A stretch of 64,000 nucleotides of DNA from Thiogranum longum (GCF_004339085.1 NZ_SMFX01000001.1:1868242-1932241); one strand, 5' to 3'; shown: positions 14,498 through 23,632, counted from the stretch's first letter. Notes: generated from the letters alone by a model not told the origin. A program made the numbers and translations.

Positions 14498-15199
14498 TCA
14501 GGGATACTGGAACCAGGCTTCACGCTTGGATGGTGACAGGCCGTGCCCTGTCTGATCCTGACAATGTGAAACCATGCGAATGATGAATGGCGCATCAATC
14601 AATGAATCAGACGGATTCACAATGGCTGTCGGGATTGGCTGGGCATCAGGATTTTTGGTTTGGGCAAGCAAATGATCATCATGTGCCATCCGGTTGAAGG
14701 GATAAGCACCGCCAACCACCGGGAAGTCCAGCTCGACTTTTAACTTACCTTCACCATCAGCATCGGTGATGAAACCGTTTGGCTGAGTCGGACTACCCGC
14801 TCCAACCCAGTCTGCAACCAGCTGGGCCAGTCCGTCGGTGTGCGCGAGGGGCGTTGCACCACCTCCGGTAATCGGGCTGCCTCCGAATGATGCGCCGTGT
14901 GAAGCGCCTTTCATACGTACCCACACAGTGTACAGCGTATTGGGGGCACCGCCTTCCAGTTCGATTTCTACCTTGCTGTTGTTACCCTTTTGAGAAATTT
15001 CGATTTCGGCTGACGCACCATCAAAGCCTTCAACCCCGCCTCCACAATTAGCGCGGACAGTACTGACCTTGTCGCCACTTGGAGCGTCTGCGTCTATTCT
15101 TGACATGAACCCGTCAATGGTGTCAGAAGAGCCAGCCTGCGCCACCCCACTCATGCCAGCGATAATACCTGCAACTAGAGTCAAATTAAATTTCTTCAT
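14498..15199 (-). CDS. Secreted protein of unknown function
   Basis: A 233-residue protein with a clear Sec signal peptide (MKKFNLTLVAGIIAGMSGVAQA) and a mature region rich in glycine and acidic residues. I do not recognise a family. Two cysteines, one near residue 52 (ANCGGG) and one near the end (SHCQDQ), could form a disulfide. A block around residues 78-95 (GGAPNTLYTVWVRMKG) looks beta-rich. It has a good ribosome binding site (GAGGAAAAGAA before ATG) and its own terminator, so it is probably a single-gene unit. It lies near another exported unknown (17471-19141) and an ECF sigma factor. Confidence 0.8.
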   Translation of the reverse strand: MKKFNLTLVAGIIAGMSGVAQAGSSDTIDGFMSRIDADAPSGDKVSTVRANCGGGVEGFDGASAEIEISQKGNNSKVEIELEGGAPNTLYTVWVRMKGASHGASFGGSPITGGGATPLAHTDGLAQLVADWVGAGSPTQPNGFITDADGEGKLKVELDFPVVGGAYPFNRMAHDDHLLAQTKNPDAQPIPTAIVNPSDSLIDAPFIIRMVSHCQDQTGHGLSPSKREAWFQYP

Positions 15200-15430: not shown

Positions 15431-15630
15431 TTTTCACACTCATGAGACAGTATCCCCAATGCCTGTATTTTCCTGATGCATAACTCAAACAGACTGGCTA
15501 AAAAAAGAATCCGGCCACTGAAATATGTGGTTATCCAGCTTCTGCTTTATGCCGTTATTTATAGATGTACAGCCCCACCACTTTATTCAATATTTTTTTA
15601 TATAAGGGCAAGCAGGCTTGATCGGGATAG

Positions 15631-16547: not shown

Positions 16548-17300
16548 TCAGGGTTTGTTTGGCGCCTCTGCAGTATCCGGTACTGCCACCCCTCCCGCAC
16601 CCACCATTATCCTGGGCCAGTCACGTTTGGAAAAAGGTTTCTTAGAAGGCTCGCTCTGGCCAACCGCTCTATTACCCAGAGCAAGTATGGGCTTCAGTTT
16701 TGCCAGTTCCTCCTTGCTCGGCTGGTGGGTGGTAAATTTCTGTTCGATCACCTTTTTACCCTGGTACCAGATTTCGAAGATCCAGTCGCCCTCAACCAGC
16801 TCGTAGTCTTCATCCAGTCCGTACCCGGTATAGGCAATAACCTGATTGGAGACGACCTTCCCTTTGATCGTTCTATCCGAGCCCGTCGAATACGAACCAT
16901 CAGGTAACGTCATTCTGGGGTGTTTCACAACCCGCCTGAGGTCGACATGTGCCGGCAGTGCGGGCAGTGGCCATATACGATACTGCAGGTACATCTGCCC
17001 GCCCTTGATCAAAGGAATACGTTCAGTTGACTTGACCATTTCTACCACTGGCTTGATGACTGACTTTCCGGTACCGGTAGTAGGGTCGTTAATTACTCCC
17101 CCACTGCGTACCAGCCGGTACAGACCGGGGCGGCCTATATGCCCCTTGAGAGGTTCGTCGGTATTAGCGGAGGGTTTCAACGGTGCCGTACTCCCGGACG
17201 ACGTCGCAAGCTTGTCACCATCCTGTGTAGCGCCGGAGTTGTTCTCACAACCACCCAGTACAAGCAGCAGTGCAATCGGAATCAGAATCAGATACTTCAT
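16548..17300 (-). CDS. Lipoprotein of unknown function
   Basis: A 250-residue protein with a lipoprotein signal (LLLVLGGC, lipidated Cys about residue 18) and a low-complexity linker to about residue 50. A globular region follows containing GLYRLVRSGGVIN, RIPLIKGGQMYLQYRI and GDWIFEIWYQGKKVIEQKF. The pattern of a modified stem with a final wifeiwyqGkkv.ekF strand resembles DUF3859, but I am unsure. Predicted location is the outer or inner membrane, facing the periplasm. The gene is convergent with 15756-16532. Confidence 0.7.
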   Translation of the reverse strand: MKYLILIPIALLLVLGGCENNSGATQDGDKLATSSGSTAPLKPSANTDEPLKGHIGRPGLYRLVRSGGVINDPTTGTGKSVIKPVVEMVKSTERIPLIKGGQMYLQYRIWPLPALPAHVDLRRVVKHPRMTLPDGSYSTGSDRTIKGKVVSNQVIAYTGYGLDEDYELVEGDWIFEIWYQGKKVIEQKFTTHQPSKEELAKLKPILALGNRAVGQSEPSKKPFSKRDWPRIMVGAGGVAVPDTAEAPNKP

Positions 17301-17470: not shown

Positions 17471-19141
17471 TTACTGGGTGAAGGCTTCGTGGATAGTCAT
17501 CACCATGCGCGGATCAATTGTCTCGACAGTACCAGCCGGCAAGCCGCTGGTCGCGCCGTCAGAGACGAAATCAAACTGCGCAATCGGCATGGCACAGCCT
17601 TCGTTGCCCTCTCCCGGACCGTAACCATCGGCAGGATCACCGGTGCATGAGCCAGTGGCGCCATCAAGATGTGCCGCATCCATACGGTACTCAAGGATGG
17701 AACCACCAGGCTTGAAGCACTGGTTGGCGGGATGGCCGGGGCCATTAATACCGTCACCGTTCGGGTCACAACCGGGGTTAGCTGCAGAGGCTCCGAAATA
17801 GAGTGTTTCAACATCACACTCATCACCGGTCAGCGTGCCACCGTTAGCGATCACCTCCGCCTGGACAAACTCACAACCCGGTCCTGACATACGGTTGATG
17901 GTGGTACCGGCGATCACGTTCACACCCGGATCCAGCGCGAGACTGCCGGTCCTGTGACCAGCGCCGGGCGCAGAGGCAAAGATGTGCTGGCGGAATACAC
18001 CCGGGTTACAGGCATCACCTTCGGCACAAGGTGCAGAACGTGAACGACGTGTACCCCACAGGGTTCCATCCTCTGACATCCGGATAGCACGCAGGTTATC
18101 ACGACGATTCGGGGAATCGAAGTTCGGTGCATCATCGTAGTTAAGCGCACCACCTGTAGCCGTAGTCCCATCGTTGGACAAATCGATCACCCGGATGATC
18201 TTGGCCTGGTTTTTCTTCTTGCCCAGCTTGAAGGTATCATCTCCATCGCTGTCACTGTCACCGTTACTGCCCTTGCCGTTGGAACCGACACCCCTGCTTG
18301 CCTTGTCGATACCGTCCTTCCAGTCGATCACAAACACCGCATCGCCATGGAACATACTCACGAACAGACCCTCAGAGGTAAAGAGGACACCTGCCGGGCA
18401 ATTCCAGCGTGGGTCATTGGCGTAAGGTCCTTCCGTGGGTTTGCTGTATTCGTCGACCACTTCCAGCGTAACCTGATCATATACAAGAACCCGGCCATTA
18501 GCGCCGCGCTCTGGTGTACTGAAAACCGGCGGGAAGAACAGGTTGGATGCGTTTCCACTGGCGTGTGTATTTCCATTCGGGCTTACCGAATCGGAATTTG
18601 GCGCATTGAAGAAATTGGCATCACAGACCGTTTGTGCAACATTACCATTAGGCATGTAACCACTACCCAACAGGCGAGGTACAAACCCGTAACCACCACC
18701 ATCGGGAGATGGCGAGGTTGGCAGCGTAGGCCCGGTTTTGATAGGTGTACCATCACGATGGAATACTGTAATCGCATGCTGTGCGGCACTGGTAATAAGG
18801 GCATGACCATCCTCACCACCGGACAAGACACCTGTTGGTTTCCACGGTCCGGGACAGTCGACGCCTCCGTTATCACAGATCGGTGTACCTATATTATCTG
18901 CACTGAACGGAACGTTAACCGTGATGCCGCGCTCACCCGTAGTGATATTCATCTCGAGCACACGGCCAGGGCCGGGGGCATTCGAGAAGGGTGCATTCTG
19001 GGCATCCGCTGCCATGAGATTGGATTCCGTACAAACCGGTGTTCCCGGCTCAGACGCGGGATCGTGCGCAATGGCACTGCCCGCAAGCATGGCGAGACCT
19101 AGCCCATAGGCCAGACTCGTAAGTGGATTTATCGTTTTCAT
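17471..19141 (-). CDS. Large secreted protein, possibly beta-propeller, unknown function
   Basis: The 556 residues start with a Sec signal peptide (cleavage after AIA-H, about residue 25). Repeated blade-like segments follow: GRVLEMNITTGERGITVNVP, ANGRVLVYDQVTLEVVDEYS, DAVFVIDWKDGI and EDGTLWGTRRS. The mature chain has many cysteines and an aspartate-rich linker GSNGDSDSDGDD (about residue 296) that could bind calcium. I know no assigned function. The ribosome binding site is good (GAGGAG). It has its own terminator and lies divergent from the ECF sigma gene, so it is a candidate target of that sigma factor. A paralogue remnant is at 15314-15430. Confidence 0.8.
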   Translation of the reverse strand: MKTINPLTSLAYGLGLAMLAGSAIAHDPASEPGTPVCTESNLMAADAQNAPFSNAPGPGRVLEMNITTGERGITVNVPFSADNIGTPICDNGGVDCPGPWKPTGVLSGGEDGHALITSAAQHAITVFHRDGTPIKTGPTLPTSPSPDGGGYGFVPRLLGSGYMPNGNVAQTVCDANFFNAPNSDSVSPNGNTHASGNASNLFFPPVFSTPERGANGRVLVYDQVTLEVVDEYSKPTEGPYANDPRWNCPAGVLFTSEGLFVSMFHGDAVFVIDWKDGIDKASRGVGSNGKGSNGDSDSDGDDTFKLGKKKNQAKIIRVIDLSNDGTTATGGALNYDDAPNFDSPNRRDNLRAIRMSEDGTLWGTRRSRSAPCAEGDACNPGVFRQHIFASAPGAGHRTGSLALDPGVNVIAGTTINRMSGPGCEFVQAEVIANGGTLTGDECDVETLYFGASAANPGCDPNGDGINGPGHPANQCFKPGGSILEYRMDAAHLDGATGSCTGDPADGYGPGEGNEGCAMPIAQFDFVSDGATSGLPAGTVETIDPRMVMTIHEAFTQ

Positions 19142-19383: not shown

Positions 19384-19971
19384 TTGAATAAATCAGGCAG
19401 CTATCGCATCTCTGTTTGTATGGAAATCATTGACCGCTTGTTGAATGCCCGCTGTCTGCGCAAAAAAATATCAGATAACCGTGATCGACTTTATGGCGTA
19501 GCGCTTTCCTGGTCCGGTGAACCGGCAGTTGCCGATGACCTGGTACAGGAGACCCTGATGATTGCCCTGCAACGAATTCACCAGTTACGGGAAGAAGAAC
19601 GCCTGAATGCCTGGATGTACACCATTCTCAGTAACTGCTGGAAACAGTACCTGCGTCGCGTCCGGCCCACCGTCGATATTGACGATGTAGAAATCTGCTG
19701 TGATGGCGATGCCGAGGCCGGCTGTAGTGAACAGGAAGTGGTCGACCATGTAAGACATGCCATACTGCGCCTGCCCGCAGGACAACGGCAAACTGTCACA
19801 CTGGTCGATCTTGCAGGCTTCAGTTATGCCGAAGTGGCAGACATACTGGATATCCCTATTGGCACGGTTATGAGCCGCTTATATACTTCAAGGCAGTCCC
19901 TGCAAAAAGTACTCGCCAACTTTCGCACCACTCAACCGGTGTCCAGAGGACACCTACGGAGGGTCAAGTGA
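19384..19971 (+). CDS. ECF-type RNA polymerase sigma factor
   Basis: A sigma-70 family protein of the small extracytoplasmic-function group. Region 2 includes LYGVALSWSGEPAVADDLVQETLMIALQRI; region 4 includes LPAGQRQTVTLVDLAGFSYAEVADILDIPIGTVMSRLYTSR. No region 1 or 3 is present. The annotated start is a TTG with AGG upstream; ATG at 19420 (MEIIDRLL) is a reasonable alternative that keeps both regions. The stop overlaps the next gene by four bases, and that gene encodes the likely anti-sigma factor. Confidence 0.93.
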   Translation: MNKSGSYRISVCMEIIDRLLNARCLRKKISDNRDRLYGVALSWSGEPAVADDLVQETLMIALQRIHQLREEERLNAWMYTILSNCWKQYLRRVRPTVDIDDVEICCDGDAEAGCSEQEVVDHVRHAILRLPAGQRQTVTLVDLAGFSYAEVADILDIPIGTVMSRLYTSRQSLQKVLANFRTTQPVSRGHLRRVK

Positions 19972-20675
19972 GTAAAACAGACTTCAGAATCGAGCGTATT
20001 TTGCACGCTTATGTCGATGGTGAGCTTGACGCACAGACGAAGAGCCGCATCCTGATCCAGATGGAGAACGACGAATCTGCCCGCGCGCGCGCCTGTGAAC
20101 TCCAGCGCACCAAGGAATGGGTCAAGTTTTCCTTTGAAGGTGAAAAGGCCCCGACACGCGCACTACCCGGAATCAACTGGCGGTTGCGTCATGCTTCACC
20201 GTTCCAGATTGCCGCCTCGCTGCTGATTGCTGTACTTGCCTTTGGTGCCGGCTGGGGTGGTCATTCACTCAGGGGTAATACCCTACCGCCCATCGCGCTG
20301 GGCACTGCCAGCACTGGAGCGCCTCATGTGATTCTTCATATCAGCGATGCTGACGAAACCCGCTTCGTAGAAGTTCTTGATCGCACCAGGCAAATCCTTC
20401 AACAGTACCGGAATACCGACGCACAAATCGAAGTCGTCGCCAACTCGGGCGGCCTTGATTTCATGCGCACCGCCTCCTCCCATCATGTCGACAGTATCAA
20501 ACGTCTCATTGCCCACTACGACAATGTCCGTTTCATTGCCTGTAGCCGAGGCCTGGGAAAACTGCGTGAACTCGGACTGGACGCCAGGGTTATCAGTGGC
20601 GTTGACGCGCATGCACCGGCTGCTGATCACCTGATAGAACGCCTTACCGAAGGCTGGACCTATATACGCATCTAG
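19968..20675 (+). CDS. Anti-sigma factor fused to a periplasmic DsrE-like domain
   Basis: The N-terminus (ILHAYVDGELD, about residues 11-21, then a charged helical region) resembles anti-sigma factors but lacks a zinc-binding H-x3-C-x2-C. One membrane helix spans about 79-98 (FQIAASLLIAVLAFGAGWGG). The remainder (about 115-235) matches a DsrE/DsrF-type fold: HVILHISDADETRF, IEVVANSGGLDFM, VRFIACSRGLGKL and the ending LTEGWTYIRI. The domain would face the periplasm. Its Cys near residue 187 sits where DsrE proteins often carry a conserved cysteine. Overlap with the sigma gene implies a sigma/anti-sigma pair. The signal sensed, perhaps a sulfur or redox species, is inference. Confidence 0.8.
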   Translation: MSKTDFRIERILHAYVDGELDAQTKSRILIQMENDESARARACELQRTKEWVKFSFEGEKAPTRALPGINWRLRHASPFQIAASLLIAVLAFGAGWGGHSLRGNTLPPIALGTASTGAPHVILHISDADETRFVEVLDRTRQILQQYRNTDAQIEVVANSGGLDFMRTASSHHVDSIKRLIAHYDNVRFIACSRGLGKLRELGLDARVISGVDAHAPAADHLIERLTEGWTYIRI

Positions 20676-20800
20676 ATCCGAAATCTGTGTCCCGTTATGC
20701 CATTACCTTCCCACACAGGTAAAGGTTAGGGTGAGTCCTGCCGACACCCCGGGTAACCCCGCCTGCGGGCTGGATCCACAGACAAACCGGGCAACCACTC

Positions 20801-21373
20801 ATGCGTGAACTGCAATACCCAGATACCAACCTTTATTACGCTAAATTCGACCGGTTTTTACCCCCTGTACTGCTTGCAATAGCCCTTCTTGTTGCCAGCC
20901 ACCCCGTGGCTGCCCGGGTATACCGCTGTGCGGATGCCAGTGGCAGCGTCAGCTATTCACAAACGCCGTGTACAGCCGCACAAACCGGCGCACAGATGCG
21001 TGGTGTTGGTGCCAGGAAAACAACCGATCGCGAAGCCTGTGCACAAGTGCGCAACTTTGCCTCGAAAAGCTTTGGCGCAATAAAGCAGGGGGCAGAACCC
21101 TCCCGGCTGATCGACAAGTACGGCGGGCCCGGTTACATCAATCCTCTTACACTCAATGTCATAAACTTTGTCAGTGGTTTCAGGCACAGCCAGGACATCG
21201 CATCGATGAAGGTCAGTGCCCTGGCATTTAACAAATGCGTAAATGGCGGATTCGGCAAACTGAGTATCACCGGTTTACCACCGGAAATGGCCCCCCCTCC
21301 TGTAGACATTCCCACTCAACCGCCTGTAGCCGCACAGACACCCCCGCCCTCTCCCGTGATACCCACCCCTTAG
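20801..21373 (+). CDS. DUF4124 domain secreted protein
   Basis: A 190-residue exported protein with a signal helix (about residues 22-38, ending VAA) and the DUF4124 motif VYRCADASGSVSYSQTPC with its paired cysteines. A middle domain has two more cysteines, and a proline-rich tail is likely flexible. DUF4124 proteins are envelope proteins of unknown role. It lies between the anti-sigma gene (125-base gap with no clear terminator) and sulP, all in the same direction. Confidence 0.75.
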   Translation: MRELQYPDTNLYYAKFDRFLPPVLLAIALLVASHPVAARVYRCADASGSVSYSQTPCTAAQTGAQMRGVGARKTTDREACAQVRNFASKSFGAIKQGAEPSRLIDKYGGPGYINPLTLNVINFVSGFRHSQDIASMKVSALAFNKCVNGGFGKLSITGLPPEMAPPPVDIPTQPPVAAQTPPPSPVIPTP

Positions 21374-21469
21374 CACCCGGTATCTCCATACCTGACTTGA
21401 CGGAGTGGACTTCGAGCGACAGGCTATTTACCCTCCGTGGACAATAATCAACGGTAAAGAGGCAGTCCA

Positions 21470-23632
21470 GTGGGGAGATCCGGAGAAAACCAGGCCTATT
21501 TGTCGAAACTGCTGCCTTTTCTCTCCTGGATAGGCGAATTACGTCACCCCGCTACGCTTCGGGCTGATTTGCTTGCCGGCCTGACGGTTGCACTGGTACT
21601 GATCCCGCAATCCATGGCCTATGCACAGCTCGCCGGCCTGCCTGCCTATTACGGTTTGTACGCCGCATTTCTGCCACCCATTGTTTCGGCCCTGTTCGGT
21701 TCCTCACGTCAGCTTGCCAACGGCCCGGTGGCTGTCGTATCACTGATGACAGCCGCAGCACTGGAGCCGCTGGCCAGCACCGGCAGTGAAGGCTATATCG
21801 CCTATGCCATTCTGCTCGCCCTGCTGGTCGGGCTGTTCCAGATCACGTTGGGGCTGTTGCGCCTTGGCGTACTGGTAAATTTTTTGTCCCATCCGGTTGT
21901 GCTGGGCTTTACCAATGCCGCCGCTATTATTATCGCCTCCTCCCAACTGGGTAAGATTCTTGGCGTCAGCGTAGACAAGGCCGAGCATCATTATGAAACG
22001 GTCTGGAATACGCTTCTGGCCGGTCTTTCCGACGGGCACCTGCCTACACTGGCCATGGCAACCCTGGCCTTCTGCATCATGATTGGCCTGCGCAAATTCA
22101 ATCCCCGTCTACCGGGCGTATTGATCGCTGTCGTTATTACAACAGCAGTATCCTGGTTGTGGGGATATGAACAACGACGACAGGTTTCACCAGAGCATAT
22201 TGCGAACCCCGAAGTACAACTGCTGGTCCAGGAGCAATTTCAACTGCGCAAGGAAATCGGGATATTCCAGAAACGCAAGCTCATGACCGAACATGATTAC
22301 CGTGTTGCCCTGGAAAAATTCGGTGAAGACTCCCCGAAGACACTCAGCGCATTGCATGCCCGTGATATTTCAGCCTCTACCCTGCAACAAAAATTACAGC
22401 AGCACCAGGACGACCTTAAAGAACTCAGGAACCTGCATTTCGAACTGGTACCCGCCGCTGACAACAATGAAACAAAACTCTATCTACGGGATAACGTACC
22501 TGCCGGTCTGGAAACACTGGGTGGCATATGGCGGTTACGTAACATCATTGACGAACGGGAGTTACTGGTCACCAGCGGTGGCGCCGTAGTTGGCCATGTT
22601 CCCGGCGGTCTCCCGGATTTCCGGGCGCCCCTGTTTGACTGGAATGCCATAACCCAGTTACTGAGCGCTGCACTGACCATTGCGCTGATCGGTTTTATGG
22701 AGGCGATCGCCATAGCCAGGAATATGGCTACCCGTACGCGGCAACGTCTCGACGCCAACCAGGAACTGGTCGGTCAGGGAATGGCCAATATTGTCGGAAG
22801 TCTGTTTCAAAGTTATGCAGTGGCCGGCTCCTTCTCACGATCGGCGGTCAATATCGGCGCTGGCGCCAGAACCGGATTTTCCTCGGTGGTCACAGGTCTG
22901 GTTGTCGTAGTGGCACTGCTATGGCTGACACCACTGCTGTACCACCTGCCCCAGGCAACGCTGGCAGCAGTGATCATGGTAGCTGTCATGGGCCTGGTGC
23001 GTATAGAACCTGTCCGGCATGCCTGGAAGGCACACAAACACGACGGATTCGTGGCTATCATTACTTTTCTGCTGACCCTGCTGCTGGCGCCGCACCTGGA
23101 CAAGGGCATCCTTATCGGCGTGGGACTGTCGCTGGGACTGTATTTGTACCGCACCATGAAACCCCGTGTAGCAGTGCTGTCACGCTACCGGGATGGCAGT
23201 CTGCGCGACATCACCGTTCACAAACTCAAAACCTGCGACAACATTTCTGTCATCCGTTTCGATGGTTCGCTGTACTTTGCCAACACAGGTTATTTCGAAG
23301 ACAAGATCCTTGAAAAGGTTTCGCTGTACCCGGATCTGAAATTCGTGATCGTTGATGCCGGGGGTATCAACCAGATCGATGCCACCGGCGAGGAGATGCT
23401 GGTCGAATTGAGCAAGCGCCTGAGCGAGTCAGGCATCGAATTGCTGATTGCGCGTATGAAACGCCAGTTCATGGATACCCTCCGACGCACCGGCGATATT
23501 GATTGCCTGGGAGAGGAACGTTTCTTTGCCCGGGTACAGAACGCACTGGATTACGCCTGGGAAAAACTGGGTAACGATCACGCCGCCAGCTGCCCGCTAC
23601 GGACTTATGTAAGCACAGAACAGAGCGGCTAG
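21470..23632 (+). CDS. SulP-family anion transporter with STAS domain and coiled insert
   Basis: An inner-membrane transporter of the SulP/SLC26 family, usually for sulfate, bicarbonate or related anions. The signature ALVLIPQSMAYAQLAGLPAYYGLY (about 41-64) is present, and a C-terminal STAS domain (about 580-700) has VIVDAGGINQIDATGEEML. At 720 residues it exceeds the common 550-600 because of a soluble, largely helical insert at about residues 235-370, between membrane segments. The GTG start at 21470 follows AAGAGG by eight bases. Substrate cannot be read from sequence. Its position after the DsrE-type anti-sigma gene suggests a sulfur oxyanion. Confidence 0.92.
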   Translation: MGRSGENQAYLSKLLPFLSWIGELRHPATLRADLLAGLTVALVLIPQSMAYAQLAGLPAYYGLYAAFLPPIVSALFGSSRQLANGPVAVVSLMTAAALEPLASTGSEGYIAYAILLALLVGLFQITLGLLRLGVLVNFLSHPVVLGFTNAAAIIIASSQLGKILGVSVDKAEHHYETVWNTLLAGLSDGHLPTLAMATLAFCIMIGLRKFNPRLPGVLIAVVITTAVSWLWGYEQRRQVSPEHIANPEVQLLVQEQFQLRKEIGIFQKRKLMTEHDYRVALEKFGEDSPKTLSALHARDISASTLQQKLQQHQDDLKELRNLHFELVPAADNNETKLYLRDNVPAGLETLGGIWRLRNIIDERELLVTSGGAVVGHVPGGLPDFRAPLFDWNAITQLLSAALTIALIGFMEAIAIARNMATRTRQRLDANQELVGQGMANIVGSLFQSYAVAGSFSRSAVNIGAGARTGFSSVVTGLVVVVALLWLTPLLYHLPQATLAAVIMVAVMGLVRIEPVRHAWKAHKHDGFVAIITFLLTLLLAPHLDKGILIGVGLSLGLYLYRTMKPRVAVLSRYRDGSLRDITVHKLKTCDNISVIRFDGSLYFANTGYFEDKILEKVSLYPDLKFVIVDAGGINQIDATGEEMLVELSKRLSESGIELLIARMKRQFMDTLRRTGDIDCLGEERFFARVQNALDYAWEKLGNDHAASCPLRTYVSTEQSG

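Follow-up and report, generated by a model that had tools for sequence, protein, structure and literature searches.

A predicted anti-sigma factor with a periplasmic DsrE-fold domain as a possible sulfur sensor in Gammaproteobacteria

The 64,000-nucleotide stretch of Thiogranum longum DNA analyzed here (NZ_SMFX01000001.1:1868242-1932241; hereafter the window) lies in a complete 2.92-Mb genome whose nearest named relatives are Thiohalobacter and Thiogranum, sulfur-oxidizing Gammaproteobacteria. It carries a gene pair that encodes an extracytoplasmic function (ECF) sigma factor and a predicted anti-sigma factor in which a cytoplasmic segment is fused, through one membrane helix, to a periplasmic domain of the DsrE fold. 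The sigma gene (19420..19971, plus strand) encodes 183 amino acids that match Pfam Sigma70_r2 (E 1.5e-13) and Sigma70_r4_2 (E 1.5e-12), both past the cut-off. By sequence, its product is an ECF sigma factor, having region 2 and region 4 only, an ECF-type promoter of its own, and an adjoining cognate regulator. The initial annotation had begun this gene at a TTG at 19384, a start that we discard. The likely start is the ATG at 19420: the TTG sits at the promoter -35 element, homologues begin at the Met corresponding to this ATG, and 7 nucleotides separate it from the end of the -10 element. The gene for the fusion protein (19968..20675, plus strand; 235 amino acids) opens with a GTG that overlaps the sigma stop codon by 4 bp.

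We modeled the fusion with AlphaFold2 using an alignment of 34 homologues, obtaining a mean pLDDT (predicted local distance difference test score) of 85 and a value of about 95 over residues 118-235. The model and weak profile matches delimit a cytoplasmic anti-sigma segment (residues 3-55; 19974..20132, plus strand) of three helices, at residues 3-16, 22-34, and 36-55. A transmembrane helix follows (residues 79-98; 20202..20261, plus strand), which is helical in the model and coincides with a hydropathy peak over residues 76-100. The remainder is the DsrE-fold domain (residues 118-235; 20319..20672, plus strand), which was recognized by profile, model, and structure comparison. Its best structural match is MTH1491 (1L1S), with Z 18.6 and a root mean square deviation of 1.5 A over 110 residues at 34% identity; Foldseek gave E 5e-10 for the same pair. 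Further matches are ST0148 (Z 16.9), YchN (14.2), TusBCD (12.8), and DsrEFH (12.6), with SSO1126 also among the group of Z 12-17. By sequence profile, the fusion likewise matched 1L1S over residues 120-235 (E 1.3e-18) as well as ST0148 (E 2.6e-8), and Pfam DsrE matches 6 of the 34 members (best 2.1e-8), the window member not being one of the 6.

The profile matches of the N-terminal part to the N-termini of MucA and RseA are weak (E 0.2-0.3), and family matches among the 34 members are to the NCBIfam "anti-sigma factor" entry in 10, to zf-HC2 in 9, and to RseA_N in 1. The HxxxCxxC motif of the zinc-binding anti-sigma (ZAS) proteins is absent from the window protein, which holds just two cysteines, Cys43 and Cys192. 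The charge bias flanking the membrane helix is small, and we infer a cytoplasmic N-terminus and a periplasmic C-terminus from the presence of one membrane helix and the presumed anti-sigma function. Together, the model and comparisons support a membrane-anchored predicted anti-sigma factor bearing a periplasmic DsrE fold, which is the three-part architecture that the initial annotation had proposed from sequence and for which it had suggested structure prediction. That annotation had also pointed to a Cys near residue 187; a conserved cysteine does exist, but at residue 192 (codon 20541..20543, plus strand), where it is the sole Cys of the periplasmic domain.

Cys192 was invariant in the 34 aligned homologues and then in all 87 distinct full-length fusions, all of them gammaproteobacterial, that we compiled from the loci fetched. 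Trp230 is likewise kept in 87/87, and His124 and Asp17 are each kept in 86/87. An ECF sigma gene adjoins the fusion in 86 of the 87 loci, the single exception lying at a contig end, so the co-occurrence of the sigma gene with the membrane-anchored fusion, another suggestion of the earlier reading, was confirmed. Neither result that would have contradicted that reading, a fold unlike DsrE or relatives keeping the fusion without its sigma gene, was therefore borne out. Among 369 genomes of the class, 91 had a match and 63 had a strong full-length fusion. Across 299 genomes of the phylum, the full-length fusion was found in only two besides T. longum, both of the same class, and elsewhere the two halves occur apart. 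The T. longum genome has three copies. The third paralogue (L032, G000:C1:2784402-2785133) is flanked by a sigma gene on one side and groEL/groES on the other, with CutA and a DsbD-like gene close by, an order that is kept in several genomes.

A strong motif, GGAATAAA-N13-GCATCTA, precedes the sigma genes and was recorded at 70 distinct ones. When the first 52 of these upstream regions were examined, the top dyad was present 21 times, versus at most 4 times in shuffles. In the window, the ECF-type promoter of the sigma gene reads TGAATAAA-N13-GCATCTC (19385..19412, plus strand), with the -35 element GAATAAA at 19386-19392 and the -10 element GCATCTC at 19406-19412. In about one-third of the 70 sigma promoters (approximately 20 homologous loci), the -10 element ends 6 to 8 nucleotides from the start codon, and because of this spacing many sigma messages may be leaderless. 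A position weight matrix (PWM) scan of all 64 kb returned just two sites scoring at least 11, the sigma promoter (25.2) and a second site on the minus strand, TGAATAAA-N13-ACATCTA (15562..15589; 22.0), upstream of a gene that we call S233; shuffled windows gave 0.1 sites of at least 15. A pattern search of the window gave 2 matches versus 0.09 expected. Pattern searches across all 2.9 Mb of the genome located five strict matches, against 0 for a reversed-pattern control; they lie at the window sigma gene, at S233, at a paralogue's secreted DsrE gene, and at two places without a clear gene. Allowing one mismatch gave 13 matches versus 4 in the control, so several of the 13 are due to chance. 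In some genomes, thioredoxin-like and SCO genes are preceded by the motif. Separately, one perfect match (G000:C1:416732-416759, minus strand; L093, L283) is followed only by a 73-codon open reading frame, 30 bp after the site.

The motif extends to genes beside the pair. Within 6 kb of the fusion, 56 of the 87 loci have a separate gene for a secreted DsrE, and 49 have one for a Porin_O_P-type outer-membrane protein. The secreted DsrE gene is mostly divergent from the sigma gene and is followed by the porin and sometimes by a DUF302 protein; these operons are preceded by GGAATAAA-N13-nnCTCTA. The secreted proteins have a signal peptide and the same Cys motif as the sensor. In a tree of DsrE domains, unrooted and built on few columns, they form one clade (98/93) beside the sensors, excluding row L077, which is misassigned and probably a porin frame. 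At L150 (G205) and L153 (G048), secreted DsrE proteins of another, YGKQKVVYHVNY-like type were seen, also with an ECF-type motif 18 to 52 bp upstream.

The window belongs to a smaller subtype of the pair with other conserved neighbors, all with apparent signal sequences and all on the minus strand here. These are C8, a 556-amino-acid protein divergent from the sigma gene (17471..19141; beside the fusion in 8 loci); C7, a DUF3859 lipoprotein (16548..17300; 5 loci); and S233, of 233 amino acids (14498..15199; 5 loci), with the second window motif 362 bp upstream. C8 and S233 have no family match in Pfam or NCBIfam, and the predicted fold of C8 was not used, its model being poor (pLDDT 42). A fitting promoter precedes C8 in several orthologues, and C8 is a likely target of the sigma factor, as S233 is a likely member of its regulon. 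Judged by gene order, then, the conserved partners of the pair are a divergent secreted-DsrE and porin operon or, in the window subtype, C8, S233, and C7.

The pair is also linked to the sox genes. In two genomes (G156 and G267), a single operon comprises sigma, anti-sigma, soxX, soxY, and soxZ, with soxB further on, and is divergent from secreted DsrE and porin. Another genome (G137) has an exact motif 49 bp upstream of soxX, and in T. longum itself a promoter site (PWM 23.1) lies 241 bp upstream of soxX. We scanned sox operons with a PWM trained on sigma and secreted-DsrE promoters only, with no sox promoters included (99% point of shuffles, 11.6). Sites scoring at least 15 lie upstream of 12 of the 39 sox operons in fusion genomes, that of T. 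longum included, versus none of 18 where the fusion is absent (Fisher p 0.011). SoxZ is encoded in 62 of the 63 genomes with the fusion versus 135 of 306 others (Fisher p 2e-18), counts that take no account of phylogeny. A TusD/DsrE-type protein was present in all eight fusion genomes examined, in seven of them above the family cut-off, T. longum included.

These results suggest a mechanism for the pair. Judging from its architecture, the predicted anti-sigma factor would retain the ECF sigma factor on the cytoplasmic side of the membrane, and a sulfur signal would reach its periplasmic DsrE domain. The signal would most likely be sulfane sulfur placed on Cys192 by polysulfide, by a Sox intermediate, or by the secreted DsrE, and the modified cysteine might alter the domain through its oligomeric state, the binding of a partner, or proteolysis of the anti-sigma factor, so that sigma is freed. 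Free sigma would then transcribe the operon that encodes it and further genes that differ between lineages or paralogues: the secreted DsrE and porin operon, sox genes, or C8, S233, and C7. Promoter motifs, gene order, and co-occurrence point to these putative target genes. In general terms, we think it rather probable that this pair, with its single-span predicted anti-sigma factor and DsrE sensor, serves as a feed-forward switch that induces sulfur oxidation in the periplasm in response to reduced sulfur. A narrower proposal, which we advance more tentatively, is that a sulfur-carrier domain of the DsrE type now acts as an extracytoplasmic receptor, with sulfane sulfur on Cys192 directly controlling the ECF sigma factor for the Sox and secreted DsrE/porin pathway. 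The fold, the invariant Cys, the genetic linkage, and the shared promoters are computed, and we infer anti-sigma activity, a sulfur signal, modification of Cys192, and release of sigma.

Several observations weigh against the feed-forward switch. Cys192 occupies a position like that of DsrE-Cys78, where a strand ends ahead of a helix, and DsrE-Cys78 carries persulfide in Allochromatium (PMC3397948), but the hhalign alignment that places one on the other is not significant. Strong promoter sites are lacking upstream of 27 of the 39 sox operons in fusion genomes, most of the sox sites lie 200 to 300 bp upstream of soxX, and the SoxZ counts, as noted, ignore phylogeny. No connection to sulfur is known for C8, S233, or C7, C8 in the window has no canonical promoter by PWM scan, and one of the three T. 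longum paralogues adjoins groEL rather than sulfur genes.

Other explanations of the same data were considered. Since DsrE-fold proteins are often trimers and hexamers, with DsrEFH and TusBCD being hetero-oligomers, it is conceivable that the periplasmic domain performs no sulfur chemistry at all and is a docking module for the secreted DsrE (or SoxYZ), sensing the amount or state of its partner by hetero-oligomerization. The secreted protein shares the sensor's fold, is encoded near the pair in the 56 loci mentioned above, and groups separately from the sensors in the tree, bar the one artefact row. Docking alone, however, would not require an invariant Cys192, and 31 of the 87 loci, the window included, lack a secreted DsrE gene within 6 kb, so we regard this explanation as unlikely. 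Alternatively, Cys192 might register periplasmic thiol-redox, sulfite, or oxidant stress, through sulfenylation, a mixed disulfide, or an S-sulfonate, instead of sulfane sulfur. The single Cys of the periplasmic domain would suit such a role, as would the motif at thioredoxin-like and SCO genes, and relatives with a similar promoter consensus respond to sulfite-generating compounds and tetrathionate (PMC3511301, PMC6527743). The thioredoxin-like matches are single cases, however, and linkage to DsrE proteins and sox genes favors sulfur compounds over general redox stress; we consider this the less plausible of the two. Sensing of extracytoplasmic sulfane sulfur through Cys192 appears to be the most likely function on the sequence evidence.

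A different picture was implied by the initial annotation, in which the sigma factor, the anti-sigma factor, and a SulP anion transporter would form one unit governing sulfate or anion transport. The SulP gene (21470..23632, plus strand) does lie 0.8 kb downstream of the pair on the same strand in the window. Yet SulP occurs within 6 kb of the fusion in just 2 of the 87 loci, it does not accompany the nearest orthologues (L051, 84%; L052, 73%) as far as their contigs extend, and the SulP gene of a same-genus genome (78% identical) has no sigma/anti-sigma pair nearby. We therefore treat SulP as an incidental neighbor. The window PWM scan also found no promoter motif before SulP, and a common transport unit seems highly improbable.

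The pair resembles known systems in part. Among the closest are the ECF26 regulators of sulfite oxidation, RpoE1/RpoE4 of Sinorhizobium meliloti and SigE of Starkeya novella (PMC3511301, PMC6527743), whose promoter consensus is -35 GGAAT and -10 CGTC (PMC6527743). They share with the pair an ECF sigma factor with a linked anti-sigma gene, an association with periplasmic sulfur oxidation, and a closely similar promoter motif, the comparison being one of promoter consensus. The ECF26 systems control sulfite dehydrogenase in Alphaproteobacteria, and no DsrE domain appears in those papers (PMC3511301, PMC6527743), whereas the Thiogranum-type pair is gammaproteobacterial and its putative targets are the secreted DsrE, the porin, and some sox operons. 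In Arcobacter butzleri, ECF sigma2/sigma7 are reported to control the sox genes (PMC3445524), so that an ECF sigma factor acts on a sox operon there too, but the lineage is not gammaproteobacterial and no DsrE-type anti-sigma factor is named (PMC3445524). With the class I anti-sigma factors RseA and MucA, the fusion would have in common a predicted N-terminal helical segment, one membrane helix, and a putative periplasmic C-terminal sensor, but its periplasmic part has a DsrE fold in place of the C-terminal domain of RseA/MucA. The same fold is found in MTH1491 (1L1S) and DsrE/TusD, which have it and a Cys at a strand end before a helix, and MTH1491 shares the motif FxACSNT; those proteins are soluble, cytoplasmic sulfur carriers or uncharacterized, whereas the domain described here would be anchored outside the inner membrane and joined to an anti-sigma segment. 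Our literature search, which did not cover the main ECF classification survey, found no description of an anti-sigma factor with a DsrE domain. Relative to the literature searched, the sensor fold therefore appears to be new for an ECF/anti-sigma system, although the sigma group may already be numbered in the ECF classification.

How sulfur oxidizers sense external sulfur has been called poorly understood (PMC11582611). SoxR and sHdrR, the characterized sox regulators, also exert transcriptional control of Sox genes by sulfur, but they are cytoplasmic repressors that need sulfur import or signaling through SoxT (PMC10451225, PMC11582611), while the DsrE fusion would read sulfur outside the inner membrane. 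A testable answer would come from a membrane receptor whose fold is that of a sulfur carrier, which dozens of genera have retained with a single invariant Cys, and which promoters link to sox. If the proposal is true, sulfur oxidizers have a means of detecting sulfur ahead of its import, the DsrE fold gains a further, new role as a sensor, and the sigma/promoter pair would suit sulfur biosensors.

Two further features lie downstream of the pair. The DUF4124 secreted protein (20801..21373, plus strand) is kept in one close relative only and is probably outside the sigma/anti-sigma system. As for SulP, the gene and its extra coiled insert are both real, as the earlier reading had it. The insert, of approximately 130 amino acids, spans residues ~235-369; some close relatives lack it, and it is absent from other paralogues whose flanking parts are 58-68% identical. 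Its counterpart is 53% identical in one genome (G657) and weak in three others (G650, G654, and G660).

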